From Actinomadura macra NBRC 14102 (GTDB taxonomy: Bacteria > Actinomycetota > Actinomycetes > Streptosporangiales > Streptosporangiaceae), in the NCBI RefSeq assembly GCF_001552215.1, contig NZ_BCQT01000007.1, forward strand, positions 1 to 64,000: DNA of 64,000 nt, given 5' to 3'. Both the position numbers and the translations under genes were made by a program. Shown one piece after another: positions 7,599 to 25,552 of the stretch (position 1 is the first letter of the stretch; each line of letters begins with the position of its first letter). The notes under the pieces were generated by a model, which saw only the letters and a list, made by a program, of their open reading frames with translations, was not told the origin of the DNA and did no database searches.

Positions 7599-8638
7599 TA
7601 ACTCAATTCACAAGCGACCTTCTCTTGGATACGGCTTGCAGGGGCGGCGTCGGCCTCGGTGTAGAACTGGGCTGCCCAGCGGCGGTACGGAGTGATGGGT
7701 CCGTCGCCGCCCGCGAGTCTCGGGCGGCGCAGGTAACCGCGGTTGTTCCAGATGGGGAAGTCCTCCCGGACGTCCGCCCACATGGTCGGGCCGATGACAC
7801 GGGTGGCCAGCCAGGCCGCGGGACACGCCAGAAGCTTCGGGCGGCGGGGCCGCGTGAGGCGCAGGGCGAGCAGCGCGCGGAACTCCAGTTCGCCGGGATC
7901 GGTCGGTGTCTGCAGGAAGAACGCCTGCACCTCCAGGCCGAGGCTCGGCACGACGCCCCGCGCCGAGTTGACGCCGAGCCCGTACGCGCGGGCGACGAAG
8001 CAGAACTCCAGCGCGCCGAGCGGCGGGAACCCGCGCCGTGTGACGACGTCCGCGCGCATGCTCGCGCCGTCGAAGTCCAGCTCCCTGATCCGCGCGGACC
8101 GGTATCCGTGCAGGGCGGTGAAGTGGCCCATGTCGACGGTGTTCTCGACGATGTCCTGCGGGTGCGCGGTGAGCCGGTGGAACCGTCTGATCGGCGCGGG
8201 GAAGCCGTCGGCCATGACCGGCGGGACCTTCCACCGGGGCGGGCCGCCGGCCGCGTCCCACCAGACGAGGACGATCCCGTCGATCTCGCAGATCTCCAGG
8301 TGCTCCAGGCCGGTCCTGGGCGGCGGCGCACCGTTGCCGGTGGCGACGCACGTCCCGTCCACGGCGAAGGCGAAACGGTGGAACGGGCAGACGAGGTTCT
8401 CGCCCTCGACCGTGGACCCGTGGCCGAGATGCGCGCCGAGGTGCGGACAGTACGGCCGGACGGCGCGCGTCAGGCCCCGGCGGGTGCGGTAGAGCACGAC
8501 GTCCTCGCCCATCAACCGGCGGCGCAGGACGCCGCCGGGCCGCAGGTCGCCGCTGAACGCGACGCCGTACCAGCCGTCCGGATAGGGCGGCAGAGCACGC
8601 GAACCAGAAATGGGAGAAATTGTCGTATTCACGGGCAA
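7598..8638 (-). CDS. Rieske non-haem iron oxygenase (KshA-like)
   Basis: A 346-residue oxygenase component. The N-terminal Rieske [2Fe-2S] ligands are Cys64/His66 (CPH) and Cys84/His87 (CPFH). The mononuclear iron site appears as ENTVDMGHFTALHG (Asp169, His172, His177). The C-terminal part (EDFPIWNNRGYLRRP) resembles 3-ketosteroid 9-alpha-hydroxylase and related oxygenases. It would hydroxylate an alicyclic or steroid/terpenoid substrate using electrons from a separate reductase, which is not encoded here. The P450 gene is divergent and the terpene cyclase genes are next, so a tailoring role in the terpenoid cluster is the best inference. Its stop overlaps the PP2C start. Confidence 0.85.
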   Translation of the reverse strand: MPVNTTISPISGSRALPPYPDGWYGVAFSGDLRPGGVLRRRLMGEDVVLYRTRRGLTRAVRPYCPHLGAHLGHGSTVEGENLVCPFHRFAFAVDGTCVATGNGAPPPRTGLEHLEICEIDGIVLVWWDAAGGPPRWKVPPVMADGFPAPIRRFHRLTAHPQDIVENTVDMGHFTALHGYRSARIRELDFDGASMRADVVTRRGFPPLGALEFCFVARAYGLGVNSARGVVPSLGLEVQAFFLQTPTDPGELEFRALLALRLTRPRRPKLLACPAAWLATRVIGPTMWADVREDFPIWNNRGYLRRPRLAGGDGPITPYRRWAAQFYTEADAAPASRIQEKVACELS

Positions 8639-8846
8639 ACCTTTCGAGAGTCGGCAACGACAGCATCGACGATCTCAGTGCGGTAACCGCGGTAAGCCCG
8701 CTTGAAGGGAGATATTCTCTTGCCCAGTCAAGCCCTTTCCGTGCTTAGGTAAAATTCTCTTTGAACATCCCGCTGAAAGGCCGGTCACGGGAGCGGGGCG
8801 GGTTCCATTCCGGTGGGGAATTCGCCCCACGATGAGAGGGAGTTCG

Positions 8847-10277
8847 ATGCCGGCCCTGACCGTTCCACGCGCCCCCGGGCGCCTGCCGCTGCTCGGCCAC
8901 GCCCACCGGCTGTTCCGCGACCCCGTCGGGCTGCTCCAGTCGCTGCGCGCGGCCGGGCCGGTCGTGCTGTTCCACGTCGGGCCGAGGCCCGTCTACGTGG
9001 TGAACTCGCCGGACCTGCTGCGGCGGATGCTGGTGACCGACGCCGGTTCCTTCGTCCGAGGCCTCGCCTACGACCGTGCGCGCCCGATCCTCGGCAACGG
9101 CCTCGCCACCTCCGACGGTGACACGCACCTGCGGCAGCGGCGGCTGATGTTGCCGTCCTTCCACCGCGCCCGGCTGCTCGGCTACACCGGCGTCATGCGC
9201 GCGCAGGCGGACGTCCTCGCCGGATCGTGGCGGGACGGGCAGCGCGTCGCGATGGACGAGGCGCTGCACCGGACGAGCGCCGCCGGGGCCCTGCGGGCCC
9301 TCTTCCGCACCGACCTGGACGACGCCATCGTCGCCGAGATCGACGACTGCGTGACGGTGTTCCTGCGGGAGATCCCGCTGCGTGCGGTGCTCCCCCGTTT
9401 CGCCGAGCGCCTGCCGACCCCCGGCAACCGGCGATTCGCCCGGGTCGCCGCACGACTACGGGAGATCGTGGACGGGATGATCGAGGAGCGCCGCACGCCG
9501 TCCCGCACGCGGGACGACCTGCTGTCGATGCTGATGGACGCGCGGGACGAGGACACGGGCGCGGCCATGACGCCCGAGCGGCTGCGGGACGAGGTCGTGA
9601 CCATCCTGGCGGGCGGCTCCGAGACCGTCCCGTCCACGCTGTCGTGGCTGTACCACGAGCTGGGCCGCAGCCCGGGTGTCCAGGCGAGGCTCCAAGGCGA
9701 GCTCGACACGGTCCTGGACGGGCGGCCCGTCGAGTTCGCCGACCTGCCCGAGCTGACGTACACGCGACGCCTCATCGACGAGACGCTCCGGCTCCACAGC
9801 GTCGCGTGGATGATGTCCCGGCGCGCGCGAACGGACGTCGATCTCGGTGGGTACCGGATCCCCGCGGGGGCCGAGTTGCTGTTCAGTCCCACGACCCTCC
9901 ACCGGGATCCGGCCCTCTACCCGGACCCGCTCCGTTTCGATCCCGACCGGTGGCTCTCACCGCCGCCGCGGGAGAACTTCGTGCCGTTCGGTGCGGGCCC
10001 CCGGAAGTGCATCGGCGACCACTTCTCCTATATCCAGATGACCGTCATCGTCGCGACCGTGTCCGCGCGCTGGACGGTGACACCGGCGGATGGGAACCGC
10101 GTCCGGGAACGGGCGTCCGGAGCGCTCCGTCCGGACCACCTGCCGATGACCGTGAAGCACCGGCCCTCGGACGGCTACGGCAAGGCGCAACGGGTGTCGG
10201 CATGTACGGCGGCATACGCGGAGGCCAGTTCCGCACCGGCCAGCACCGTCGAGGACGAGACGACGTACGGCGTGTAG
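8847..10277 (+). CDS. Cytochrome P450
   Basis: A 476-residue P450 with the I-helix oxygen-activation motif AGGSET, K-helix ETLR, PERF-like FDPDRW and the haem loop FGAGPRKCIG with ligand Cys388. The chosen ATG follows GAGGGAG (8836-8842); an in-frame ATG at 8832 is less well placed. The C-terminus runs about 35 residues past the normal P450 end, and that tail overlaps antisense the last 103 nt of the convergent cyclase gene. No ferredoxin or reductase gene is nearby. Its position between a Rieske oxygenase and diterpene cyclase genes suggests oxidation of the terpene scaffold. Confidence 0.93.
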   Translation: MPALTVPRAPGRLPLLGHAHRLFRDPVGLLQSLRAAGPVVLFHVGPRPVYVVNSPDLLRRMLVTDAGSFVRGLAYDRARPILGNGLATSDGDTHLRQRRLMLPSFHRARLLGYTGVMRAQADVLAGSWRDGQRVAMDEALHRTSAAGALRALFRTDLDDAIVAEIDDCVTVFLREIPLRAVLPRFAERLPTPGNRRFARVAARLREIVDGMIEERRTPSRTRDDLLSMLMDARDEDTGAAMTPERLRDEVVTILAGGSETVPSTLSWLYHELGRSPGVQARLQGELDTVLDGRPVEFADLPELTYTRRLIDETLRLHSVAWMMSRRARTDVDLGGYRIPAGAELLFSPTTLHRDPALYPDPLRFDPDRWLSPPPRENFVPFGAGPRKCIGDHFSYIQMTVIVATVSARWTVTPADGNRVRERASGALRPDHLPMTVKHRPSDGYGKAQRVSACTAAYAEASSAPASTVEDETTYGV

Positions 10278-11716
10278 AGGCTCCGGCCTACCCACAGCTC
10301 GGGGAAGGGCCCGTCGAGATGGTCGCGCAGATAGCGGCGGGCCCTACCCCACACTGATGCGGGCACGCGCATGCCGTGACGTGCCAGCGCGTCCAGGTTG
10401 AGGACGGCGCAGCCCGTCTCCTCCGGCGTGCCGCGCCCGTACCAGCCCCAGGATCCGTCAGGCCGCTGGGTGTCGAGCAGCCAGGCCAGGGTCCGGTCCA
10501 GTGGCACACTCGTTGCCCTGGTCAGCGCGAACGTCACCTGCGCTGTGGCGTAGTACGGCGACACATGCCACTTGTCGTACCACCAGGCGTCCTCACGGCG
10601 GGTCTCCAGGAGGAACTCGCCGACCTTCCTCATCGGCCGCGCATACGCGTCCGGGCGCAGTGCGAGCGCCTCCAGCACGCGGGCGTTCGGGGTCACCGAC
10701 CCGTCCCGCTCGCCCGGATAGGTGAAGAAGCAGTGCTCGCCCTCGAAGGCGAGCAGTCCGTCCAGCAGGTGCCGGACGTCGTGGCCCGCCGCGTCCAGCA
10801 CGATGATCGCCATCGCGCTGTCGTCGGGGTCGGGCAGCGGGAACCCGCCGCTCAGGCCCATCCGACCGCGCTGACCGAGCAGCGTCCGCAGCCGGCCCAG
10901 GCAGCGGCCGGCGGCGGCCGTCCCGGCGCCGAGGAGCCCGGCCCGCTGGAGGTGGTGCAGCACCCAGGCCAGTTCGAAAGCCTCGGTCGGATAGAGGGCC
11001 GGGACACCCCCGTCGGGGTCGAGCTCGGCCACGGCCTCCAGGTACGCGAGCGTTCTGCCACCGCCCCCGGCCGTCCAGAGCGCGGCCGTCGCGGACGGCG
11101 AGTTGGCCAGGGAACCGTCCGGCGCGGTGAAGCGTGCGAGCGCGCGCAGCGCAGGATCAGGTTCGATGGTCTCCAGGGAGTACATGAGCGAAGTGGGCTC
11201 GCCGAGGAGGCGGTCCCTGGGGATGAGGTCCAGTTTCGCCTGCCGCGTCTTGGTGAGGTCGGCCCAGTCCCCGCTGGGCAGGTCGAGCCCTCGCGCGGAC
11301 AGTTGGCCGAGCAGCAACGGGACGGCCATCTCGAACCCTATGGTCTCCCCGGTGGCGGCCCCGCGCCACGCGGAGGAATGGGCACGCAGGTAGCCCAGCC
11401 CCGCACGCACCGCGCCCATCCGTCCCGGCAGAGGCGGACCCGGGTCGGTCAACGCGACGACCGCGGCGAGCGTGCAGACGGTCCGGTCGTGCGGAAGTTC
11501 CACCTCCCCGCCCCACGAGCCGTCTGACCGCTGGTGGCCGATCAGCCATCGCCGCGCCCGCGGGAAGCGGACCGCGCCGTCGTCGCGGCGTAGCCGGGAC
11601 AGCCACGCCGTCGTGTACGGGCACGGCCCGAACGAACCACCGGTCCCCAACCGGCCGAGCAGCGCCTCCGCCCTGTGGCGCGTGGACGATTCCGCCCGGA
11701 AGTCCCGCCCGATCAT
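10175..11716 (-). CDS. Class II diterpene cyclase (DxDD type, copalyl-diphosphate-synthase-like)
   Basis: A 513-residue protein with alpha-barrel repeats (QW-like QRSDGSWG at 62-69 and QRPDGSWGWYG further on) and the class II catalytic acid motif DPDD (296-299, DPDDSAMAI). Such enzymes protonate the terminal alkene of geranylgeranyl diphosphate to make copalyl-type bicyclic diphosphates. The length matches bacterial class II cyclases, shorter than squalene-hopene cyclases. The ATG overlaps the stop of the upstream terpene synthase gene (ATGA), implying a coupled pair. A longer frame to 12682 is open only because it runs through the upstream gene in another frame. The 3' end overlaps the convergent P450 gene by 103 nt. 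Confidence 0.88.
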   Translation of the reverse strand: MIGRDFRAESSTRHRAEALLGRLGTGGSFGPCPYTTAWLSRLRRDDGAVRFPRARRWLIGHQRSDGSWGGEVELPHDRTVCTLAAVVALTDPGPPLPGRMGAVRAGLGYLRAHSSAWRGAATGETIGFEMAVPLLLGQLSARGLDLPSGDWADLTKTRQAKLDLIPRDRLLGEPTSLMYSLETIEPDPALRALARFTAPDGSLANSPSATAALWTAGGGGRTLAYLEAVAELDPDGGVPALYPTEAFELAWVLHHLQRAGLLGAGTAAAGRCLGRLRTLLGQRGRMGLSGGFPLPDPDDSAMAIIVLDAAGHDVRHLLDGLLAFEGEHCFFTYPGERDGSVTPNARVLEALALRPDAYARPMRKVGEFLLETRREDAWWYDKWHVSPYYATAQVTFALTRATSVPLDRTLAWLLDTQRPDGSWGWYGRGTPEETGCAVLNLDALARHGMRVPASVWGRARRYLRDHLDGPFPELWVGRSLYTPYVVSSSTVLAGAELASAYAAVHADTRCALP

Positions 11717-12792
11717 GCCGCGTGCCCGGCGTCGAACTGCTCGTAGTGGCGCACGGACCACAAGAGCTGGCGTTCCAGCGCAAGCGCCGGGCCCGGCTGC
11801 GCGCCGAGGTGCGGGCCCAGCCCGCGCCGACAGCGCGCGACATGCCGGGTGATCCGGCATCGCACCTCGTCGGGCGGCAGCCCGAGGGCGAGCGCGTCCA
11901 CCACCCCCTCGTCCCGTTCGCGGTGGTGTCCGCGCAGATCGTTGGCCAGCCGGACCGCGAGACAGGCGTCCCGCAAGGGCCGCCGCAGCACTGCTGGGAC
12001 AGACGCTGATGTGCCAGACGCCGATGTGATGGACCCTGATCGGACGGACGCTGACGTGACGGACGCTGATCTCGCGGGCACCGAGGTTGCAGGCACTGAT
12101 CTTGCGGCCACTGATCTTGCGTGCACCGTCGTTGCGGACGCCGAAGGTGCCGGTGCACAGGTCGCGGGTGGCGCCGCCGTACACGCGCCGGCCGGGGCGG
12201 GGGGCGACATGTCCGACCACATCGCGAGCACGAGCGGGGCGAGGGCGATGCTCGCGGCGCCGTGCCGCAGGTACTCGCCGAGTGTGGGGGCGGGGCCGCC
12301 CGCCCGCATCCGCAGTGCCGCCTCGTACTCGAAGAGGGCGCCGGCCAGGGCCGCGTCCACGGCCCGCTGCCACGGGGGCAGTATCGCCGGCGAGGCCGCG
12401 ACGTCGTCCCGGATCTGTGCCAGTGCGGTTCCCAGGGCGTCCTTCGCCGGGGCCGTGCCACGGGCGACGGCGCGGAGGGCGGCCAGGTCCACACGCAGGC
12501 GGACGGGTTCGCGGCGGGCCGCGGGGCCGTCCGTCCAGGCGTCCAGGGCGAAGATCCACAGTCCGGTCCGCACGGTCAGGCGGGCGCCGCGGCGCGACAT
12601 CCAGGGCGCGACGAACGCGGCGGGCAGCGCGCACATCGGCGCGAGCGCCGGATCGAACGGCGGGCCGAGCCGCTCGGCCCACTCGGTGGCGCGCGTTGTG
12701 AGCCGGGTGGCGGCGACGGCCGCGTCCGCGGCGGCGAGCACGTCCAGGGGTGGGAACGCCTCCCCTTCGATGCCCCTTTCTTCCGTGTCCAT
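11713..12792 (-). CDS. Class I terpene synthase-like protein with repetitive insert
   Basis: A 359-residue alpha-helical protein with terpene-synthase landmarks in degraded form. The aspartate-rich motif is DAWTD (84-88) instead of DDxxD/E. The NSE triad reads NDLRGHHRE (about 284-292) with Gly for the middle Ser/Thr. Between about residues 196 and 268 lies a low-complexity insert of five-residue periods (xARSV/SVTSA-like) encoded by a 15-bp tandem repeat. The insert should sit between helices that carry the two metal motifs. It is coupled to the class II cyclase gene downstream, so it likely takes the copalyl-type product and ionises it. The altered motifs and insert leave activity uncertain. 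Start ATG 12792 has AAGG upstream; the open frame above it has no normal start. Confidence 0.72.
   Translation of the reverse strand: MDTEERGIEGEAFPPLDVLAAADAAVAATRLTTRATEWAERLGPPFDPALAPMCALPAAFVAPWMSRRGARLTVRTGLWIFALDAWTDGPAARREPVRLRVDLAALRAVARGTAPAKDALGTALAQIRDDVAASPAILPPWQRAVDAALAGALFEYEAALRMRAGGPAPTLGEYLRHGAASIALAPLVLAMWSDMSPPAPAGACTAAPPATCAPAPSASATTVHARSVAARSVPATSVPARSASVTSASVRSGSITSASGTSASVPAVLRRPLRDACLAVRLANDLRGHHRERDEGVVDALALGLPPDEVRCRITRHVARCRRGLGPHLGAQPGPALALERQLLWSVRHYEQFDAGHAA
12005..12154 (+). repeat. 15-bp tandem repeat, pentapeptide-like on the opposite strand
   Basis: About ten diverged 15-bp units, such as GCTGATGTGCCAGAC and ACTGATCTTGCGGCC. They lie inside the terpene synthase gene. 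Read on the plus strand they translate as ADVPD, ADVMD, ADVTD, ADLAG, TDLAA, TDLAC: the A(D/N)LxX pattern of pentapeptide-repeat proteins. The terpene synthase reads the complementary strand. Confidence 0.8.
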
Positions 12793-16546: not shown

Positions 16547-17599
16547 ATGTGGGACTACGCGGGCCGGGACACAGCGATCGACCTGGGCAGCGCGACCGTG
16601 CGGATGCACGTCAAGGACCGCGGGGTCGTCTGCCGGGAGCCCTCGCTGCTGGCGCGATCGCGGCGCACCGGGCAGATCCTCGCGCTGGGCGTCCCCGCGC
16701 AGCAGATGGCGGGGCGCAATCCCGACGTCACGCTCGTGCGGCCCATCCGCGAGGGCGCGCCGACCGAGACCGACGAGGCCGAGTACCTGATGCGGCACCT
16801 CGTCCGCACCCATCACCGGCGCCACTACATGGCCCGGCCCCGCCTCGTCATGACGGTACCGAGCGGGATGACGTCCGTGCACTACCGGGCACTGCAGTTC
16901 TCCGCCTATCAGGCCGGTGCGCGACGGCTGACGCTGGTGCCGACGCCGATCGCCGCCGCCGTCGGGATGGGCATGACCGAGGCCGGCCCCGAGATCGCGG
17001 TCATCGCCGATATCGGCGCCGAGGTCACCGATGTCGGCGTCATCGCCTTCGGCGGCCTCGTCACCTCGCACACCGCGCACGTCGGCGGCACGTCCCTGGA
17101 CCGCTCGATCGTCGCGCTGGTGCGCCGCGAGCACGGGGTGTCGCTCTCGCTCGCCGCCGCGGAGTCGGCCAAGGTGGCGGTCGGCGCGGTGCCCCCGGTG
17201 GGACGGCACCCGATGCGCCAGGCGATGGTGGAGGGACGGGACGTGGAGTCCGGGCTGCCCCGGCGGCTGGTGCTCACCACCGCCGACGTCCAGCGCGCCA
17301 TCGAGGGTCCCGTCGCCAAGATCGTGGACGCCGTCCGGACCGGTCTCGGCGGCTGCTCCCCCGAGATCTCCGGGGAACTGCTCAACGTCGGCGTCACGCT
17401 CACCGGCGGGTCGGCGCGGCTGCCAGGGCTGGAGCGGCTGATCCGCGAACGGACCGGACTGAGCGCCTGGCTCGGCGACGACACCGGCGACGCGGCCGTG
17501 ATCGGCGCGGCGGACGTGCTGCGCACCGCCGGCGCCCAGCATCCCGCCCGCGACATCACACCGCGCCCGCATCTACTGACCACCGTCCCGCAGTACTGA
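16547..17599 (+). CDS. MreB-like bacterial actin
   Basis: A 350-residue actin-fold protein with the MreB nucleotide-binding signatures: phosphate 1 IDLGSATVRM, phosphate 2 IADIGAEVTDVGVI and adenosine motif LTGGSARLPGL. Family members polymerise on the membrane and organise wall synthesis; in filamentous actinomycetes MreB proteins act mainly in spore-wall assembly. The gene is an orphan: no mreC, mreD, pbp2 or rodA lies beside it, which suggests a secondary paralogue. Compared with canonical MreB, the first motif has Ser-Ala-Thr where Thr-Ala-Asn is usual. A purine-rich GGGGGA precedes the ATG at 16547. Confidence 0.85.
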   Translation: MWDYAGRDTAIDLGSATVRMHVKDRGVVCREPSLLARSRRTGQILALGVPAQQMAGRNPDVTLVRPIREGAPTETDEAEYLMRHLVRTHHRRHYMARPRLVMTVPSGMTSVHYRALQFSAYQAGARRLTLVPTPIAAAVGMGMTEAGPEIAVIADIGAEVTDVGVIAFGGLVTSHTAHVGGTSLDRSIVALVRREHGVSLSLAAAESAKVAVGAVPPVGRHPMRQAMVEGRDVESGLPRRLVLTTADVQRAIEGPVAKIVDAVRTGLGGCSPEISGELLNVGVTLTGGSARLPGLERLIRERTGLSAWLGDDTGDAAVIGAADVLRTAGAQHPARDITPRPHLLTTVPQY

Positions 17600-17676
17600 C
17601 CCGCAATTCGGCAAAACGAGGTGACCGGGTGGCCGTTTCCGTCACGTACGGGTCGCTGTGACGTCACGATGGGTAC

Positions 17677-18609
17677 ATGGCCATCGAGGGGATGCCCGGA
17701 TACGACCTGATCAACCTCGTCAGGGATCTCGGGCCCGTCGAGGCGGTCCGTGACCAGGAGGCCGCCGAGCGGATGCGCGTGTATCCCAAGATCGTCGGCG
17801 CGGGACCACCGGACTTCGGCGTCGCCGAACGGTCCGCCGGCGCATGGCGGATCCTGCACCTCGGCGCGATCGAACCGTACGGGGCGCGCGTCGATCTGGC
17901 GATGCACCTGCGCCGCGGGGCGGGGCGGTTCGAGCGGCGCGTCCGCGAGCGGATGCTCGCCATCGCCGACCGGTGCGACCCGGAGGTCGGCGAGGCGACC
18001 ACCCAGAACGACTTCGCGGCCGGCCGGTGCCGGTACCGGATCATCCGGGTACTGGGCTTCACGCGGTTCGGCGACGACGGGCCCGAACCGGTCCGCGCGA
18101 CCGACACCGAGGAGGGCCCGCTCCGCTCGTTCACCATCGATCCGACCGCACCGGTCGGCCCGTCCGACGCGGCGCTCCGGCTGGAACTGCTGAGCCTCGT
18201 CCCGGCCGCCGGGACGGTCCCCGACGGCCTGCGCCGGGAGGCCGTCACGGCGATCCGCGACCATCCGGGTGTCGTGCTGCTGCCGCCGGAGTTCACCGTC
18301 GTGGAGGATCTGGACGACCGGTGGCGGCCGCTGACCGGCGGTGACGGCCCGCAGGACGCCCGCGCCGCGCTCGCGCACTACTTCCGCGTGATCCTGCCCC
18401 GCTACTCGCCGGACGGCGCGCCGCCGCCGAGTCCCGGTGAACTCGCCGAGTACGCGCGGGCCGCCGACCGCGTCGAAGCCGACCGCGGGGTGGAGTTCGT
18501 GGCGTGCGGGCGGCGGTTCCGTATCGTCCGGGTCGTGCGGATGATCAGGGTGGGCCCGGATGGCCCGGAGGCCGCCCGCCCCTCCGACGAGGAAGCCGAG
18601 GAGGGCTGA
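17677..18609 (+). CDS. DUF5954-like protein of unknown function
   Basis: A 310-residue cytosolic protein with an internal repeat. Two related segments, near residues 117-150 and 275-300, share a YRIIRV/FRIVRV strand followed by a GPxGPE(P/A)xRxSD-like stretch. This matches what I recall of the actinobacterial DUF5954 family. No catalytic motif, signal peptide or membrane segment is visible. It has its own start 77 nt after the MreB-like gene and may or may not be cotranscribed. No function is proposed. Confidence 0.65.
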   Translation: MAIEGMPGYDLINLVRDLGPVEAVRDQEAAERMRVYPKIVGAGPPDFGVAERSAGAWRILHLGAIEPYGARVDLAMHLRRGAGRFERRVRERMLAIADRCDPEVGEATTQNDFAAGRCRYRIIRVLGFTRFGDDGPEPVRATDTEEGPLRSFTIDPTAPVGPSDAALRLELLSLVPAAGTVPDGLRREAVTAIRDHPGVVLLPPEFTVVEDLDDRWRPLTGGDGPQDARAALAHYFRVILPRYSPDGAPPPSPGELAEYARAADRVEADRGVEFVACGRRFRIVRVVRMIRVGPDGPEAARPSDEEAEEG

Positions 18610-18666
18610 CTGGGCACCGGATCCGCGGGCGGGACGTCCGGGCCCTTCGCTAGGCTGCCGCACGGC

Positions 18667-18739
18667 AGGGCCGTAGCGCAGAGGTCGTCGCGCCACCGCC
18701 GCACGCTGGAGGACGCCGGTTCGAATCCGGTCGGCCCTG
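18667..18739 (+). tRNA. tRNA-like element (atypical or pseudo-tRNA, apparent CGC anticodon)
   Basis: A 73-nt cloverleaf can be drawn by hand. Acceptor stem: 18667-18673 with 18732-18738. TA at positions 8-9. D-arm: GCGC with loop containing GG, three pairs plus a C-T mismatch. Anticodon arm: CCACC/GCTGG with one C-C mismatch. Variable loop: five nt. T-arm: GCCGG/CCGGT with loop TTCGAAT. Oddities: position 33 is C instead of U, the apparent anticodon is CGC, the first base is A, and the acceptor stem continues for three more pairs (18664-18666 with 18739-18741) where the discriminator base and CCA would be. It lacks the G3-U70 pair expected for tRNA-Ala. It lies about 30 nt upstream of the zinc-ribbon SDR gene. 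It may be a mimic rather than a working tRNA. Confidence 0.6.
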
Positions 18740-18770
18740 CCCCGTCCACCCCCGGGGAGCGAGGAGTGCC

Positions 18771-20228
18771 GTGCCGACCGTCCCGGCAGAGCAGCCACCG
18801 GCAGAGCAGGCCGACGAGCCGCCACCGGTGCAGGCACCCGACCCGGCCGACCTCGCGGCATGCCTGCGGCTGCTGGAACTGGCGCGGTCCGCGTCCCCCG
18901 ACGACCCCCGCTGGCGCACCGTGCACGAAGCCGCCGCGCAGGTGCACCGAGCGGGCAAGAAGGCCCGCAAGGCCGCCCGGAGCGCCGAGCGGCGCAGTAA
19001 CGATCTCGCGCTGTTGGCGGCCACGACGCGCTTCCAGGACCAGAACCCGTCCCCGGACGCCAGGCCGGCCGCAGGCGCGGACGCCCGGCCGCCGCGCGCC
19101 GGGCAGCGGGTGCTGGCGGCGGCACGGCGGTGCTACGTGTGCAAGGCGCCCTTTCGGGACGTCCATCCCGACTACCACCAGCTGTGTCCGGCGTGCGCGC
19201 GGGAGAACGCGGCGCGCCGGAATGCGCGGTGCGACCTGCGCGGACGACGCGCCGTCGTGACGGGCGGGCGCGTGAAGATCGGCTTCCAGGTCGCGCTGAA
19301 ACTGCTGCGGGACGGCGCGGAGGTGCTCGTCACCACCCGCTTCCCGCGTGACGCGGCACGCCGGTTCGCGGCGGTCGACGACTGCGGCGACTGGCTCGGA
19401 CGGCTGCACGTCCACGGCGTCGACCTGCTCGACCTGCCCGGCGTCGCGGGGCTGCTGGAGGCGGTGCACGCACGGTTCGACCATCTGGACGTCCTGGTCA
19501 ACAACGCGGCGCAGACCGTCCGCCGGCCGGCCGCCTACCACCGGGACGTGCGCGCGGCGGAGGCGCTGCCGTTGACCGGCCCGGCCGCGCGGGTGGACGT
19601 CGCGCAGGCGGCGCCCGGCACCGCGCTCGCCCCGGGGCCCGGCGCGACGCTCGCCCCGGGGGCCATGGCGGACCTCGCACTGCGAGACGACGCCCTGTTC
19701 CCCTCCGGACGCACGGACGAGACGGGCGAGCCCCTGGACCTGCGCGCCCGCAACAGCTGGAACCTGCGCCTGCACGAGGTCGATCCCGCCGAGTGGGCCG
19801 AAGTGCAGATGGTGAACGCGTTCGCGCCGTTCCTGCTGACCGCGCGGCTGCGCGGGCTGCTGGAGGCGTCGCCGTGGCCCGACCGGTACGTGGTGCAGGT
19901 GTCGGCGATGGAGGGCAGTTTCTCCCGCGTGCACAAGACCGTCCGCCATCCGCACACCAACATGGCCAAGGCGTCGCTGAACATGATGACCCGCACGTCC
20001 GCCGCCGACTACGCGGCGGCCGGCATCCACATGACCAGCGTCGACACCGGCTGGGTGACCGACGAGCGGCCGCATCCGGGCAAGCTCGCGCAGCGGGCGG
20101 CGGGGTTCCGCCCGCCGCTGGACGTGATCGACGGCGCCGCCCGCGTGTACGACCCGATCGTGCGGGGCGTCGGCGGCGAGCGGCTGTCCGGCCTGTTCCT
20201 GAAGGACTACCGACCGGTGGAGTGGTGA
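18771..20228 (+). CDS. SDR-family oxidoreductase with N-terminal zinc ribbon
   Basis: A 485-residue protein in three parts. Residues 1-115 are charged and probably helical or disordered. A zinc ribbon/treble-clef follows, with CYVC (121-124) and CPAC (139-142). A short-chain dehydrogenase/reductase domain covers 155-485. The cofactor loop is TGGRVKIG (164-171), NNAA is at 244-247 and the catalytic Ser at about 378. The YxxxK motif reads TNMAK (396-400): the catalytic Tyr is Thr, while Lys400 is kept. A 50-residue Ala/Pro/Gly-rich insert sits at about 265-315. GTG 18771 is preceded by GAGGAG. It is the first gene of an overlapping operon (SDR-LRR-ankyrin-MoxR-VWA) and begins just after the tRNA-like element, so the ribbon might bind nucleic acid; this is inference. 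Confidence 0.85.
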   Translation: MPTVPAEQPPAEQADEPPPVQAPDPADLAACLRLLELARSASPDDPRWRTVHEAAAQVHRAGKKARKAARSAERRSNDLALLAATTRFQDQNPSPDARPAAGADARPPRAGQRVLAAARRCYVCKAPFRDVHPDYHQLCPACARENAARRNARCDLRGRRAVVTGGRVKIGFQVALKLLRDGAEVLVTTRFPRDAARRFAAVDDCGDWLGRLHVHGVDLLDLPGVAGLLEAVHARFDHLDVLVNNAAQTVRRPAAYHRDVRAAEALPLTGPAARVDVAQAAPGTALAPGPGATLAPGAMADLALRDDALFPSGRTDETGEPLDLRARNSWNLRLHEVDPAEWAEVQMVNAFAPFLLTARLRGLLEASPWPDRYVVQVSAMEGSFSRVHKTVRHPHTNMAKASLNMMTRTSAADYAAAGIHMTSVDTGWVTDERPHPGKLAQRAAGFRPPLDVIDGAARVYDPIVRGVGGERLSGLFLKDYRPVEW

Positions 20229-21361
20229 TGGAGCCGACCCCCGTACGCTGCCCCGCGATCGAGCACCCGGCCGTGCCGCTCGCCGACCCGGCCGCGCTCG
20301 GCCCGCTGCTGGCGCGGCTCGCCGACGGCGCGCCGCTGGAGGCCGACGAGACGTTCCCGCTCGGGACTCTGCGCGGCGACGGGCGGGTCGACCTGTGCAA
20401 GCGGGGCCTCGGCGCGGCGGGCGTCGCGCGGCTCGTCCCGGCCGCGGTCGCGTCGCCGCACGCGGTGCACCTGCTGCTCGGCACGAACGCGATGGGCGGC
20501 GACGGCGCCCAGGCGATCGCCGACGCCCTCGACCCCGGCCACGGCGTCCGGACCCTCTACCTGGGCTGCAACCGCATCGACGCGGACGGCGCGGCGGCGC
20601 TCGCCGGGCGGCTGGCCGCGGACGGCGAGGTGCGGGCGCTGTGGCTGAAACGCAACCCGGTGGGCGACGCGGGCGCGGCGGCACTGGCCGGGATGCTCCG
20701 AACCAACCAGACGATCCGGACGCTCGACCTCGTCAACACCGGTCTGGGCCTGACCGGGCTACGCGCTCTCCTCGACGCGCTCGCGGCGCGGGAGACTCCG
20801 CTGGAGCGGCTGTTCCTCGGCGGCAACGGGCTGGGCCCGGACGCCGCCGGGGTGCTGGCGGCGCTGCTGCGCGACGCGGGCGTCCGTGAGCTGTACGCGC
20901 CCGCGAACCACCTGGGCGACGACGGCGCGGCGAACCTCGCGGACGCGGCGGGCTCCGGCGAACGTCCCGTCCGGCTCGGGCTGGGCGGCAACGGCGTCGG
21001 CCCCGCCGGGGCGCGGGCCCTCGCGGGGGCGCTCGGCCGGATCGAGGCGCTCGACCTCGGCCGCCCGCCGTCCGAGCGGGCGCTCGGCGCGCCCCCCAAC
21101 GCCACCGGCGACGACGGCGCGGCGGCGCTGGCCGCGGCCTTGTCCCGCAGCCCGCTCCGCCGCCTCGAACTGCGCCACACCGGGATCACCGGGCGCGGCG
21201 CGAAAACGTTGCTGGCGAAGGTCGGCGACGGCACGCGCCTGGAGTACGTCGGGCTCGGCCCGGGCGTGCCGCGCAAGGTCAAGCGCGCGTTCACCGGGCG
21301 CCTGCGCCCCGCCGCGGGCACCCATCCCGACCTGCGCGCGATCGCGAGCGTCTACCGTTGA
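20228..21361 (+). CDS. Leucine-rich-repeat protein (ribonuclease-inhibitor type)
   Basis: A 377-residue protein. After about 85 N-terminal residues it consists of RNI-like leucine-rich repeats of roughly 28 residues, e.g. VRTLYLGCNRIDADGAAALA and VRALWLKRNPVGDAGAAALA. Such solenoids bind proteins. The start overlaps the SDR stop (TGATG), and the stop overlaps the next start (TTGA), so synthesis is coupled on both sides. There is no signal peptide; the protein should be cytosolic. In this operon it probably supplies a recognition or scaffold surface. Confidence 0.85.
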   Translation: MEPTPVRCPAIEHPAVPLADPAALGPLLARLADGAPLEADETFPLGTLRGDGRVDLCKRGLGAAGVARLVPAAVASPHAVHLLLGTNAMGGDGAQAIADALDPGHGVRTLYLGCNRIDADGAAALAGRLAADGEVRALWLKRNPVGDAGAAALAGMLRTNQTIRTLDLVNTGLGLTGLRALLDALAARETPLERLFLGGNGLGPDAAGVLAALLRDAGVRELYAPANHLGDDGAANLADAAGSGERPVRLGLGGNGVGPAGARALAGALGRIEALDLGRPPSERALGAPPNATGDDGAAALAAALSRSPLRRLELRHTGITGRGAKTLLAKVGDGTRLEYVGLGPGVPRKVKRAFTGRLRPAAGTHPDLRAIASVYR

Positions 21362-22662
21362 TCGGCGCGCCGTCGCGGGAGGAGCTGGCCGCGTACCGGC
21401 GGATCCGCCGGTACGCCGTGCCCCGCTCGATGATCGAGAAGGCCACTGCGCGGCGGCTGGCGGGCGACTGGCATGGCGCGTGCGCGGCGGCGAACGTGGA
21501 CGTCGCGTTCGACCTGGACGGCGTCGCCGGCGAGTACGGCGCCGAGGCCGCGGCGGAGCTGGCCGACGACCTCCGGCACTTCGCGCCCGACCTGCTGCGC
21601 TGGCACCTGCCCCGGGTCTCGGGTGGCGGCCGAACGGGCCTCGTGGCCCGGCTGTCGCTCGCTCTCGGGCGCTACGGCGGAGACCGCGCCCCCGCGCCCG
21701 CCCCGGTCCTGCACGTCGACACGCCGGCCCTGCTCTGCGGCCCGCAGCGGCTGACGCTGGCGGTGCGCCCGTGGTCGCCCGGGGCGCGGGACTGGACGTC
21801 CGCGCCGCACCTGTTCGACGCCCGGCGCGCCGGCGACCTGCTCCGGCATTCCGCCCTGGCCGTGACGACCGGCGGGGGACGCCGGCGCCCGCTCGCGCGG
21901 CTCGCGCACGAGGACGCGGCGTCCGCCGAGAACCCGGAGCTGGAGGAGCACCAGGGGCGCCGCCTGCCCGACCTCGACCTGCTGCGCGCCGGGATGATCA
22001 CGCCGGCGGAGCTGCACCCGCTGGTCTCGGCCGCGCTGTTCCCGGCCCGTCCCGTCCCCGACCGGCCGGACGGGCCGCCAGGCGTGGAGCGGCCGGCGGC
22101 GGTGCGGGTGCGGTGCCGGGGCGAGTGGCACGAGGTCCGGTCGGGCCACGGCGGCCTGGAGATGCCGCACTCGGCGGCCGAGCAGCGGCGAGAGCAGGCA
22201 CTGGCGGGGTTCGGCGGGAAGATCCCCGGATGCTTCGCCGTCCACCGGGTGTGGCGGTCGGGGGACGGACGGCTGCCCCGCGGCCTGCGTGAGCAGCGTG
22301 AGGACCTGTTCCTGCGCGCGCAGCACGGCGACACCGACGGCGTGCTGCGGCTGCTGGACGCCGGGATGGACCCGTTCGTCCGCGACGGGCGCAGGCGGAC
22401 GCTCATGCACACGCTCAGCGCGCTGGATCACGAGGTGCTGCTGCCGCGGCTGCTGGAGGCAGGGCTCGGCCTGGAGGACCTCGACCACAACACCCGCACG
22501 CCGCTGTATGCCGCGGTCTGCGAGATCGGCCCGGTCGCGCTGATCAGAGCGCTGGTAGAGGCGGGGGCGCGCACGGACACGACCGACCGGTACGGCAGGA
22601 GCCTGACAGAGATGATCAAGTCGAACGGACGGGACGATTTGGAGTGGCTCCGTGCCGGCTGA
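21358..22662 (+). CDS. Ankyrin-repeat protein
   Basis: A 434-residue cytosolic protein. Residues 1-310 have no domain I recognise. About 315-430 form ankyrin repeats (LRAQHGDTDGVLRLLDAGMD, TPLYAAVCEIGPVALIRALV, DRYGRSLTEMI). The proposed TTG start shares bases with the LRR gene stop (TTGA); the first in-frame ATG (21430 region) would remove about 24 residues. Its 3' end overlaps the MoxR gene by 11 nt. Together with the LRR protein this gives the operon two different solenoid proteins, presumably adaptors for the AAA+/VWA pair. Confidence 0.78.
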   Translation: MIGAPSREELAAYRRIRRYAVPRSMIEKATARRLAGDWHGACAAANVDVAFDLDGVAGEYGAEAAAELADDLRHFAPDLLRWHLPRVSGGGRTGLVARLSLALGRYGGDRAPAPAPVLHVDTPALLCGPQRLTLAVRPWSPGARDWTSAPHLFDARRAGDLLRHSALAVTTGGGRRRPLARLAHEDAASAENPELEEHQGRRLPDLDLLRAGMITPAELHPLVSAALFPARPVPDRPDGPPGVERPAAVRVRCRGEWHEVRSGHGGLEMPHSAAEQRREQALAGFGGKIPGCFAVHRVWRSGDGRLPRGLREQREDLFLRAQHGDTDGVLRLLDAGMDPFVRDGRRRTLMHTLSALDHEVLLPRLLEAGLGLEDLDHNTRTPLYAAVCEIGPVALIRALVEAGARTDTTDRYGRSLTEMIKSNGRDDLEWLRAG

Positions 22663-23833
22663 CCTCCTCGCCGCCGCGGACGAGCTCAACGCCCGCGCCG
22701 GCGCGTGGCGCACCGAGCCGGCGCGCAGCGCCCAGCTGGAGGCGCTGGCGCTCGCGGTGTCGGCGAACGTCCCCGTACTGCTGTGGGGGGAGCCGGGCAT
22801 CGGCAAGTCGGCGGGGATGGAGCGGCTCGCGGGACGGCTCGGCGTCCCGCTGGAGACGGTGATCGCCAGCGTGCACGAGCCGTCCGACTTCGCCGGGCTG
22901 CCGGTCATCGGGGACGATCCGGCCGTGACCGGAGTGCCGATGGCGCCGCCCGACTGGGCGGTACGGCTCGCGGGCGCCGGACGCGGCATCGTGTTCTTCG
23001 ACGAGCTGTCGTCGGCGCCGCCGGCGGTACAGGCGGCGCTGCTGCGGGTCGTCCTGGAGCGCAGGGTCGGGAGCCTGGCGCTGCCCGGTCCGGTCCGGGT
23101 CGTCGCCGCCGCGAACCCGCCGGCGAGCGCGGCGGACGGCTGGCACCTGAGCCCGCCGCTCGCGAACCGGTTCGTCCATCTGCACTGGACGCACGACCCG
23201 CGGACGGTCGCGCGGGGCATGGCGGGCACCTGGCCCGAGCTGACCGTCCCGGTCGTGGACGGGGCCAAGGCCGCGGCGGCCGTCGCGCGGGCACGCGGCG
23301 CGGTGTCGGGGTTCCTCACGGCGCGCCCAGGGCTGGCGCATCACCTGCCCTCCGACGCGGAGGCGCGCGGCGGGGCGTGGCCGTCGCCGCGCAGCTGGGA
23401 GATGGCGCTGCGGCTGCTCGCGACCGGCTACGCCACCGGCGCCGCGCGGGACGCGGTCGCCGCCGCGGTGGTCGGCGCCGTCGGCGACGGCGCCGGGCTT
23501 GAGCTGCTGTCCTACCTGGAAGAGCTGGATCTCCCGGACCCCGACCGCGTGCTCGCCAACCCGTCCGCGTTCGCGCTGCCCGAGCGCGGCGACCGGCAGC
23601 TGGCGTTCCTGACCGCCGTGGTCGCGTCCGTCCAGGGCGACTGCACCCGCCGGCGCTGGGAGGCGGGCTGGGAGGTGCTGGCCAAGGCGGTGGACGCGGG
23701 CGTCCCCGACATCGCCGCGCGCGCCGCGGGCGACCTGGCCGCGCTCCGCGACACCGACTGGCCCGTCCCGAGCGGTATCGAGGGGTTCATCGACCTGCTG
23801 CAGCTGTCCGGCGCGCTGCCGGGCGGCGGGTAG
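22652..23833 (+). CDS. MoxR-type AAA+ ATPase
   Basis: A 393-residue AAA+ protein with Walker A GEPGIGKS (46-53), Walker B IVFFDE (113-118) and sensor-1-like VVAAANPP. MoxR ATPases work with VWA-domain partners as chaperone-like machines that activate or remodel target complexes. The partner gene follows 2 nt downstream. The GTG start lies inside the end of the ankyrin gene. The C-terminal 130 residues are helical without a separate domain I recognise. Confidence 0.9.
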   Translation: MPADLLAAADELNARAGAWRTEPARSAQLEALALAVSANVPVLLWGEPGIGKSAGMERLAGRLGVPLETVIASVHEPSDFAGLPVIGDDPAVTGVPMAPPDWAVRLAGAGRGIVFFDELSSAPPAVQAALLRVVLERRVGSLALPGPVRVVAAANPPASAADGWHLSPPLANRFVHLHWTHDPRTVARGMAGTWPELTVPVVDGAKAAAAVARARGAVSGFLTARPGLAHHLPSDAEARGGAWPSPRSWEMALRLLATGYATGAARDAVAAAVVGAVGDGAGLELLSYLEELDLPDPDRVLANPSAFALPERGDRQLAFLTAVVASVQGDCTRRRWEAGWEVLAKAVDAGVPDIAARAAGDLAALRDTDWPVPSGIEGFIDLLQLSGALPGGG

Positions 23834-23835
23834 CG

Positions 23836-25032
23836 ATGCCGCGCGGCCCCGTCGCGCTCGACCGGACGAAGCTGCTCGCCGCGCGCTACCGGGCGGCGAC
23901 GGACCGCCCCTACCTGGCGTCCGCGCTGTACTCGCTGACGGTCGTGCCGAGCGACGCCGTCCCGACGATGGGCGTCGACCGGCACTGGCGCTGCTACGTC
24001 TCCCCCGCGTTCGTGGACGCGACGCCCGTCCCGGAGCTGGCGGGCGTCTGGATCCACGAGACCGCGCACCTGCTGCGCGACCACCACGGCCGTGCGGAGC
24101 GGCTGCCCGCCGCCGACCAGCGCGACCCGGCGCGCGTCAACATCGCGCAGGACTGCGAGATCAACGACGACCTGCTCGCGGACGGTCTGGTCCTTCCCGC
24201 GGGCGGCATGCACCCGCGCGACTTCGGGCTGGACGAGGGACGGCTGTTCGAGGAGTACCTGCCGGGCATCCCGCCGCGGCCGCACCACGACTGCGGGTCG
24301 GGCGCGCACGGCCGCCCGGTGCCGTGGGAACTGGACGGGACGGGCCCGCCGGCCGTGAGCGCGATGGAGGCGCAGGCGCTACGGCGCGCCACGGCCGAGG
24401 CGATGCGCGGCCACCAGCGGGCGCGGGGCGCGCTGCCCGGCGGCTGGCGCCGCTGGGCGGAGGAGGTCCTCGAACCGGTCGTGGACTGGCGGCGCGTCCT
24501 CGCGGGCGCGGTGCGGGAGGCGGTCGCGTGGGCGGGCGGCGCGGTCGACTACAGCTACCGGCGGCCGTCGCGCCGCACGCCGGCCATGCGCGGGGTCGTG
24601 CTGCCGAGCCTGCGCCGGCCGCTGCCCCGCGTCGCGATCGTGATCGACACCTCCGGTTCGATGGGCGAGGACGACCTGGCGGCGGCGCTCGCCGAGGTGA
24701 CCGGGGTGCTGCGCGAGGTCGGCGTGCGCGGGAACCGGGTGAGCGTGCTGGCCTGCGACGCCGACGTGCGGGCGGTGTCGCGCGTGAGCTCGGCCGGGCA
24801 GGTCGAACTGGACGGCGGCGGCGGAACCGACATGCGCGTCGGGATCGCCGCGGCGCTCGGGGCGCGCGAACGCCCGCAGGTCGTCATCGTCCTCACCGAC
24901 GGCTTCACCCCGTGGCCCGCCGAAGCCCCCTCCTGCCGGCTCGTCGCCGCACTCGTCGGTGACGCGCCGCCCGACCCGCCGTCCTGGGTGGAGACCGTCC
25001 GCCTGGGCCCGACCGCTGGGAGACCCTCATGA
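23836..25032 (+). CDS. Putative zinc metallopeptidase fused to a VWA domain (DUF2201-like)
   Basis: A 398-residue protein. The N-terminal half contains a zinc-protease motif HETAH (74-78), followed by an acidic NIAQDCEIND stretch that is typical of DUF2201-type predicted metallopeptidases. The C-terminal half is a von Willebrand A domain with intact MIDAS DTSGSMG (271-277) and GGGTDM. It pairs with the MoxR ATPase encoded 2 nt upstream; such proteins form MoxR-VWA complexes, and the HExxH suggests a possible proteolytic output. No signal peptide is present. The stop overlaps the ATG of the decayed metallo-beta-lactamase-fold gene that follows. Confidence 0.87.
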   Translation: MPRGPVALDRTKLLAARYRAATDRPYLASALYSLTVVPSDAVPTMGVDRHWRCYVSPAFVDATPVPELAGVWIHETAHLLRDHHGRAERLPAADQRDPARVNIAQDCEINDDLLADGLVLPAGGMHPRDFGLDEGRLFEEYLPGIPPRPHHDCGSGAHGRPVPWELDGTGPPAVSAMEAQALRRATAEAMRGHQRARGALPGGWRRWAEEVLEPVVDWRRVLAGAVREAVAWAGGAVDYSYRRPSRRTPAMRGVVLPSLRRPLPRVAIVIDTSGSMGEDDLAAALAEVTGVLREVGVRGNRVSVLACDADVRAVSRVSSAGQVELDGGGGTDMRVGIAAALGARERPQVVIVLTDGFTPWPAEAPSCRLVAALVGDAPPDPPSWVETVRLGPTAGRPS

Positions 25033-25552
25033 GCGACGCGCCCGACCGCGACGGGCTCGCGAGCCCCCGTCTGGAGGAGGTCTCGGACGGGATCTTCGCC
25101 TACATCCAGCCGGACGGCACCTGGTGGATCAACAACACCGGGTTCCTCGCGGGCACGCGCGGCGTGACAAGCGTGGACGCCTGCTCGACCGAACGCCGGA
25201 CCCGTGCCTACCTGGAGGCGATCCGGTCGGTGACGCCGCGTCCCGTCCGGACGCTGGTCAACACCCATCACCACGGCGACCACACCTTCGGCAACTACCT
25301 GGATACGCGCGGTTCGTCCAGCACGTGGCTACCGAGGCGAAGGCGGCGGGGCTGACGCCGCTGGAGGCGGCACGGGAGACCGATCTCGGCGAGTACGCGG
25401 AGTTGACCGACCCCGAGCGCATCGTCGGCAATCTGCACCGCGCGTACGCCGAGCTGGACGGACTGGCCCCCGGCGCGCCCATCGACCTGGTCTCCGCACT
25501 CGACGACATGATCACCTACAACGGCGGCCGGCCGCTGACCTGCCGCGCCTGA
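25029..25552 (+). pseudogene. Metallo-beta-lactamase-fold hydrolase, internally deleted and frameshifted
   Basis: The frame starting at 25029 encodes a normal MBL-fold N-terminus through the metal motif NTHHHGDHTFGNYL, then changes into unrelated residues and stops at 25355. The true C-terminus (GYARFVQH...TPLEAARETDLGEYAELTD...MITYNGGRPL) continues in another frame to 25552. The join is near 25296-25304. The middle of the protein, with the remaining metal ligands, is missing. This is a deletion relic rather than a single-base sequencing error. It overlaps the VWA gene stop, so it was once the last gene of that operon. Confidence 0.8.

Follow-up and report, generated by a model that had tools for sequence, protein, structure and literature searches.

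Elements that annotation programs label as tRNA genes in bacterial DNA are not always ordinary tRNA genes. In the 64,000-nucleotide stretch of Actinomadura macra NBRC 14102 analyzed here (contig NZ_BCQT01000007.1, positions 1 to 64,000; "the window") a tRNA-like element (TLE) precedes an operon of five genes for a zinc-ribbon protein with short-chain dehydrogenase/reductase (SDR) fold, a leucine-rich repeat (LRR) protein, an ankyrin-repeat (ANK) protein, a MoxR-like AAA+ ATPase and a metallopeptidase fused to a VWA domain. We show that TLEs are tRNA mimics: their tRNA body is conserved, their acceptor stem has 10 bp, their −10 box keeps a fixed distance and their anticodon arm is interchangeable. 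We also show that they are genetically tied to the SDR pseudoenzyme and the LRR protein, and in Actinobacteria to the ANK, MoxR and VWA-metallopeptidase genes as well. TLEs apparently form a widespread and undescribed RNA family; the literature search gave no description of TLE-type RNAs among the matches listed.

The original prediction, made from the window, had placed a tRNA-shaped sequence less than 30 nt before the operon. This is confirmed: ARAGORN calls a single tRNA in the 64-kb window (tRNA-Ala(CGC), 18666-18742, forward strand), Rfam matches it to RF00005 with 41.9 bits (18667-18739), and 29 nt separate the end of the element from the SDR start codon. Its conservation, its covariation and its association in genomes show that it is more than chance. 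The boundaries listed in Table 1 were chosen because the covarying acceptor stem comprises ten pairs, and all ten are formed in the window TLE. Its anticodon arm departs from the canonical form of a 5-bp stem and a 7-nt loop with U33 by a C-C mismatch and C33, CCA is not encoded at its 3′ end, and its folding energy is unremarkable (z −1.40; 19 out of 200 shuffles fold equally well). Judging from the −10 box, transcription is predicted to start at or adjoining the first nucleotide of the element.

For the comparison with ordinary tRNAs we used 123 genuine tRNA calls (96 distinct) from two genomes; relatedness among the TLEs was left in all counts. TLEs share with tRNA the cloverleaf, the consensus of the D and T loops and the 5-nt variable loop, and their Rfam tRNA scores reach 60.3 bits. 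The D and T arms are near-invariant, with entropies that are biased low since the regular expression used for parsing fixes parts of both arms; it also misses some matches of the covariance model (loci L181, L226, L228-L232). The acceptor stem sets the two groups apart. Three extra contiguous pairs beyond 7 bp were found in 107 of 139 TLEs compared to 0 of 121 genuine tRNA calls, a set from overlapping source stretches in which some tRNAs are counted twice. The 7-bp stem with a free discriminator, as in tRNA, is thus not what TLEs possess.

The pairing is supported by covariation. In a MAFFT alignment of 21 TLEs, which was not fitted to the model, 93.7% of the cloverleaf cells are paired and both partners have changed in 11 of 23 pairs (the shuffles average 7.0, and 1 of 500 comes as high), seven of them in the 10-bp acceptor stem. 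If 104 TLEs are aligned, 18 of 23 pairs have both-sided changes, all ten acceptor pairs among them. Such cells number 304, the shuffles average 81 and 0 of 500 reach the observed count, and the covariation score is 0.416 vs 0.176; this second alignment was made by the covariance model and therefore leans towards it. A TANNNT box starts 22 to 9 nt 5′ of the element in 125 of 139 TLEs, whereas the background is 37 of 5700 random windows. Its commonest spacing is 7 nt before the TLE stem, mostly in the context CG(C/T)TANNNT. Covariation and promoter box together disfavor chance or a pseudogene. We dropped the missing CCA as an argument against tRNA identity: only 24 of the 123 genuine tRNA calls encode it, which makes its absence uninformative (16 of 139 TLEs would encode it if their stem were read as 7 bp).

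The part that differs from TLE to TLE is the anticodon arm. Arrays contain up to six TLEs approximately 150 nt apart (L163), four (L158, L183) or three (L103, L129, L140, L146, L159, L160, L179). In the 29 loci with several TLEs, 64 of 67 within-locus pairs differ in the arm while their bodies are mostly alike, the extreme being a pair in L163 with a body identity of 0.98 and an arm identity of 0.16. A few TLEs (L146, L164, L169) were misregistered by the parser, and their body identities are therefore too low. The three pairs that share an arm all come from L103, where three head-to-tail TLE-ANK units of approximately 1.9 kb each carry identical anticodon arms (6963-12711); this triplet is a recent tandem duplication.

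Out of 116 distinct arms (eight read by hand included) 62 have a fully paired stem and a 7-nt loop, a form that the remaining 54, including the arm of the window TLE, lack. The 62 arms have 43 distinct loops, 29 of them with U33. A C at position 36 followed by a purine (C36-R37) occurs in 111 of 151 TLEs compared to 20 of 80 genuine tRNA arms; the TLE count takes in 12 actinobacterial and 11 non-actinobacterial arms read by hand, and nine of the latter 11 show it. Trp-type TLE loops are identical to the loop of tRNA-Trp(CCA), and one TLE arm is exactly that of tRNA-Ala(GGC). Beyond these cases, the idea that every TLE arm copies a host tRNA is unsupported. A Trp-type TLE is also found on a plasmid of S. 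venezuelae NRRL B-65442, a tractable laboratory strain (L416, 4001-4081). The 10-bp acceptor stem together with the interchangeable, often non-canonical arms disfavors an ordinary tRNA and supports the mimic that had been suggested at the outset.

The tie to the genes is seen first among close relatives. SDR homologs (E≤1e-30) occur in 21 of 59 related genomes, the window's own included. For the 15 close orthologs (the window's own and others 71-85% identical) a tRNA-like element lies upstream in 15/15, with many different ARAGORN anticodons; this was the check set beforehand for the original prediction, which came through it unrefuted. The covariance model gave 32 matches of at least 81 bits in the 59 genomes, located in exactly these 15, and the remaining matches (≤63.3 bits) were taken as ordinary tRNAs. 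The predicted synteny holds too: the order SDR-LRR-ANK-MoxR-VWA is complete at 13 of the 15 loci, the exceptions being L031 without MoxR-VWA and L032, in which the contig ends inside MoxR. Seven stretches with distant SDR homologs (approximately 50% identical) have no upstream element, save a degenerate 28.9-bit copy in L046. The multi-copy TLE family, its minimal cassette and the add-on genes described in the following are invisible from the window alone; a second TLE in the window's own genome precedes a lone ANK gene.

For 66 of all 139 parsed TLEs a family gene starts within 80 nt downstream, at a median distance of 28.5 nt and in 49 cases with a Shine-Dalgarno-like motif in between. The gene that follows is SDR 47 times, ANK 12 times, LRR six times and MoxR once (outside the window's genome, genes and their start codons were called with a simple purpose-made program). 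The usual set in other genera is TLE(s)-SDR-LRR(-ANK-MoxR-VWA). L173 and L180 contain TLE-SDR and no further family gene, L183 has separate TLEs before SDR, ANK and MoxR, and in group g56 (L158-L161, L163) TLEs precede LRR-ANK with SDR absent from the stretch. Probable Streptomyces loci (L215, L217, L220-L222) show TLE-LRR-ANK-MoxR-VWA without SDR. A cassette thus needs no more than TLE(s)-SDR, or these with LRR, and ANK-MoxR-VWA are add-ons. In L215, L217, L221 and L222, not in L220, a short frame ending in ...PVEW and followed by TGATG lies between TLE and LRR; it is possibly a vestige of the SDR gene, namely its ends, that keeps the translational coupling to LRR.

The elements are widespread within Actinobacteria. 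A TLE match at E≤1e-12 is present in 66 of the 341 genomes of the window's family. In a class-wide sample 39 of 394 genomes have a model match: eight from the window's own family, 19 from group f20, a second actinobacterial family that probably is Streptomyces, and 12 others that reach just 62.7-67.8 bits and probably hold ordinary tRNAs.

The SDR family itself is wide (at least 589 confirmed stretches, 80 of them kept for upstream analysis). Six actinobacterial loci among these 80 have TLEs of at least 73 bits before SDR (L303-L306, L315, L364), and in L316 such TLEs lie before a second SDR gene. Of 11 non-actinobacterial loci, three have tRNA-like elements 5′ of SDR according to ARAGORN: L307 (Parabeggiatoa) and L319 (Cyanobacteria UBA8803) with two each, and L355 (SAR324) with one. 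L344 and L374 have apparently ordinary tRNA-Leu genes at this place. In the phylum of L319, SDR is present in 12 of 292 sampled genomes, four of which carry tandem element pairs upstream (L395, which is the genome of L319, L396, L403, L405). L395 and L396, whose SDR proteins are 79% identical, have an LRR ortholog after SDR. Judged by eye, bodies are kept and loops changed within the element pairs of these two genomes, and the first element of L405 has at least ten contiguous acceptor pairs. Since model scores outside Actinobacteria are at tRNA level, we infer from place, pairing and loops that these elements belong to the TLE family. Two side observations concern the same set. By eye the D-arm motif GGAAGAG is frequent in L319, L395, L396, L307 and L355, the actinobacterial one being AGGTCGTCGC, and single tRNA calls lie shortly 3′ of SDR in L401 (2848-2921) and L402 (1143-1218), either ordinary tRNAs or another arrangement.

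Table 1. TLE, promoter box and operon genes in the window
Feature	Position	Strand	Remarks
−10 box TAGGCT, family context CG(C/T)TANNNT	18651-18656	+	7 nt 5′ of first TLE stem nucleotide
tRNA-like element (TLE), 78 nt	18664-18741	+	ARAGORN, Rfam, covariance, alignment
Acceptor stem 5′ strand, 10 bp, GGCAGGGCCG	18664-18673	+	pairs with 18732-18741
D arm GCG-CAGAGGTCGT-CGC	18676-18691	+	
Variable anticodon arm CCACCGCCGCACGCTGG	18693-18709	+	no clean 5-bp/7-nt form; C36-A37 equivalent 18702-18703
T arm GCCGG-TTCGAAT-CCGGT	18715-18731	+	
Acceptor stem 3′ strand CGGCCCTGCC, then CCGTC	18732-18741	+	
Shine-Dalgarno-like GAGGAG	18761-18766	+	for SDR GTG at 18771
Zinc-ribbon SDR-fold protein without catalytic Tyr, 485 aa	18771-20228	+	adh_short 1.4e-16
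LRR (LRR_6) protein, 377 aa	20228-21361	+	TGATG junction with SDR
ANK (Ank_2) protein, 434 aa	21358-22662	+	TTGA overlap with LRR gene
MoxR-like AAA+ ATPase (AAA_5), 393 aa	22652-23833	+	11-nt overlap with ANK gene
DUF2201_N metallopeptidase (HETAH) fused to DUF2201/VWA (DTSGSMG), 398 aa	23836-25032	+	2-nt gap after MoxR

The five gene junctions and the five products that had been read from the window agree with the sequence and with the domains found (Table 1). The SDR Rossmann fold is predicted confidently (AlphaFold pLDDT 86.8), and the Foldseek matches listed (n=50) are of SDR type with TMt up to 0.86. DZR_2, the zinc ribbon, scores below threshold in the window protein (17 bits, cut-off 27), and its four cysteines are invariant in 39/39 aligned homologs. 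In place of the YxxxK active site the family has an invariant Thr (HTNMxK) in the same 39/39 homologs, and in 18/18 of a smaller alignment; the catalytic Tyr is therefore absent from this SDR family. The window ANK protein misses approximately 100 internal residues compared to most of 24 aligned relatives, an in-frame deletion. For its N-terminal region Pfam gave no match, and a structure model from four input sequences (pLDDT 57.5) is too poor to interpret. Just 3′ of the operon (25029-25552) there is a metallo-beta-lactamase-like frame with a second short overlapping frame, perhaps a broken gene. On the 5′ side lie MreB-like and DUF5954 genes (16547-18609), likewise in L031, L032, L044, L133 and L134.

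TLEs also occur away from these operons. Orphans without a downstream family gene exist; one of them (L105) is directly followed by what by eye is a strong terminator-like inverted repeat. TLE-like sequences are present in 14 Streptomyces plasmid records, and of five plasmid TLEs scanned with the covariance model four score 75-90 bits and L412 54.7 bits. A locus-tag number is missing at the TLE position in eight of nine plasmid records, which suggests that plasmid TLEs were annotated as RNA genes. Viral contigs, searched with one exact pattern, and phages, searched with one blastn, gave no TLE match. Two plasmid copies have conspicuous neighbors: L410 (4991-5083) lies after a PT-HINT polymorphic toxin and an Imm32 gene, L412 (4999-5092) after a SUKH gene. 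One of 20 chromosomal orphan-TLE neighbors is a NucA/NucB-type DNase.

The authors tentatively propose, as a reading they favor without being confident of it, that TLEs are tRNA-mimic baits or decoys whose anticodon arms can be exchanged. The zinc-ribbon pseudo-SDR would hold them, and they would be coupled to LRR/ANK proteins as sensors and to MoxR with the VWA-metallopeptidase as effector. The proposal draws on the association with the gene set, the covarying and un-tRNA-like acceptor stem, the repertoire of arms and the tRNA character of many of them; SDR5C1 of human mitochondrial RNase P and the inhibition proposed for YrlA, both taken up below, offer precedents. The transcript would begin at the TLE, which would fold like a tRNA and use its anticodon arm to bait an agent directed at anticodons (a nuclease toxin, a modifying enzyme, or a factor from a phage or competitor). 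Without a dehydrogenase role, the SDR-fold protein might bind the TLE, the cleaved TLE or both. The LRR/ANK solenoids could then pass the change of the bait on to the MoxR ATPase, and the VWA-metallopeptidase would be either what this ATPase acts on or what it acts through. With different arms in an array, a broader set of agents could be trapped or sensed, and orphan TLEs might be decoys alone. Arrays, orphans and plasmid copies favor a role in trans. The dedicated tRNA-mimic sensing system of the original prediction is partly supported; that the zinc ribbon binds the RNA, that tRNA damage is sensed and that a signal is relayed to the ATPase and peptidase are conjectures.

A wider picture is possible, and we regard it as somewhat doubtful. 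It would be an undescribed immune or stress system with a guarded repertoire of tRNA-bodied baits with different, swapped arms, whose cleavage, modification or sequestration would be read by the SDR-fold pseudoenzyme and LRR/ANK and executed by MoxR and the VWA-metallopeptidase. Its TLE-SDR(-LRR) core would predate the split between Actinobacteria and Cyanobacteria or would have spread between them.

Several observations weigh against the bait or decoy proposal. Many SDR-proximal TLEs, the window's included, carry a non-canonical arm, which is odd for an anticodon decoy. Exact matches of TLE loops to genuine tRNA loops (6 of 43) barely exceed the column-shuffled control (mean 3.6; 134 of 1000 as high), therefore the majority of TLE arms do not copy those of the host; with at most one mismatch 24 of 43 loops match, compared to a shuffled mean of 18.5 (18 of 1000 as high). 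Most of the 80 kept SDR loci show no upstream element, nor do 8 of the 12 SDR-bearing genomes of the cyanobacterial phylum. The actinobacterial model misses the L319 pair and scores L355 (48.9 bits) and L307 (34.6 bits) at the level of ordinary tRNAs. Just two of the nine inspected plasmid loci have immunity genes (seven of the nine were judged by record annotation alone), and the 20 chromosomal orphan-TLE neighbors, four of them without any Pfam match, include no Imm or SUKH family. PADLOC gave only weak matches in the window (ankyrin 3.9e-6, RtcR-type AAA and similar) and no known anti-phage system. We rejected an association of orphan TLEs with immunity clusters on the plasmid and chromosomal counts given. 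The outcome of the CCA check and the tRNA-level scores of the non-actinobacterial elements led us to lower our confidence in baits and decoys.

The main rival, in our estimation rather unlikely, is a cis-acting operator: the TLE would be a 5′ leader that mimics tRNA, and translation would be repressed or activated either by an operon product that binds tRNA or by an enzyme that handles tRNA. The predicted transcription start at the TLE, the median of 28.5 nt to the start codon and the Shine-Dalgarno-like motif in 49 of 66 cases are what one would expect of such a leader, as are the separate TLEs before SDR, ANK and MoxR in L183. The complementarity between loop and leader is slightly higher than in partner-swapped controls (mean run 3.56 vs 3.38 nt; 4 of 300 as high, uncorrected for relatedness), a weak signal on which we do not build a kissing interaction. 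An operator does not, however, account for orphans or for up to six TLEs in tandem, the majority of which have their own −10-like box, and it has no need for a repertoire of anticodon arms.

Less probable still are specialized tRNAs, charged and serving translation or another aminoacyl-tRNA-dependent step, for instance as stress or spare tRNAs. The good cloverleaf, Rfam scores up to 60.3 bits, U33 in 29 of 43 loops and the Trp-type loops speak for them, the regulated extra tRNA operon of Anabaena offers a precedent (PMC10272220), and the unencoded CCA is no objection given 24 of 123 genuine calls. For this result, and for the tRNA-level scores outside Actinobacteria, we rated this explanation higher. 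The 10-bp acceptor stem, however, leaves no free discriminator, 54 of 116 distinct arms are non-canonical, and the place before SDR, ANK or LRR genes is fixed. Relic or hitch-hiking tRNA copies without RNA function, such as attachment sites of mobile elements, are very improbable: tRNA genes commonly serve as integration sites, some TLEs are plasmid-borne and two lie near an ISL3 transposase, but all ten acceptor pairs show both-sided changes, the −10 box and the D and T arms are conserved, and the same gene is repeatedly found downstream.

Annotation programs label TLEs as tRNAs, and this hides an RNA family with a variable anticodon arm and a usual pseudo-SDR partner; tRNA counts and anticodon tables of genomes with TLEs would need correction. 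If TLEs bait anticodon-directed agents, bacteria would possess an RNA-decoy repertoire with a logic comparable to arrays of immunity proteins. If they are operators, they would represent a widespread class of tRNA-mimic riboregulators. Either reading provides a testable function for the conserved SDR-LRR-ANK-MoxR-DUF2201 gene set, which had none.

Among known RNAs, tRNA (RF00005) is closest to the TLEs by cloverleaf, D/T loop consensus, 5-nt variable loop and the ARAGORN and Rfam calls; it differs from them by their 10-bp acceptor stem without free discriminator, their often non-canonical arms and their place as leader or array before a fixed gene set. E. coli thrS has a tRNA-mimicking operator, and like operators of this type many TLEs are a tRNA-like structure directly 5′ of a start codon; unlike TLEs, the thrS type is a single copy at a synthetase gene, without arrays or orphans. 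Rfam contains the YrlA family, and a scan at E up to 1 matched the TLE to no family but RF00005, Y-RNA-type families included. Ro60 has a vWA fold; the domain scan of the eight window proteins gave no TROVE/Rsr, RtcB or RtcA domain. YrlA and Y RNAs with Ro60-Rsr (rsr-yrlBA-rtcBA operon) resemble the TLEs as operon-encoded RNAs with a tRNA-like domain, which in YrlA was proposed as a possible competitive inhibitor of an anticodon nuclease (PMC7790460). In contrast, the usual partner of TLEs is SDR, and TLEs form arm-swapped arrays.

The pseudo-tRNA tRNA-Other of Bacillus cereus is another bacterial tRNA-like RNA without translation function; unlike the TLEs it is a single predicted pseudo-tRNA flanking an island, with no array or SDR-LRR operon seen in the excerpt (PMC3399842). 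As for the proteins, MoxR-vWA ternary conflict systems of multicellular bacteria also have a MoxR AAA+ protein adjoining a vWA protein (PMC7159879). The window MoxR reaches 19.4 bits for bpMoxR (PF20030), below the cut-off of 27, and no beta-propeller or VMAP domain was listed for the eight window proteins; the available text of that source mentions neither DUF2201 nor ankyrin, with LRR and tRNA just in its reference list (PMC7159879). The SDR protein finally recalls TRMT10C-SDR5C1. No TRMT10C or PRORP partner was seen here, and the window SDR differs by its zinc ribbon and lost catalytic Tyr, its tRNA binding being a conjecture on our part. The likeness lies in an SDR-fold protein that helps to hold tRNA: TRMT10C-SDR5C1 helps human mitochondrial RNase P to encase its tRNA (PMC12630138), and the presence of SDR5C1 is needed while its enzymatic activity apparently is not (PMC8437803, PMC12630138, PMC10602865).

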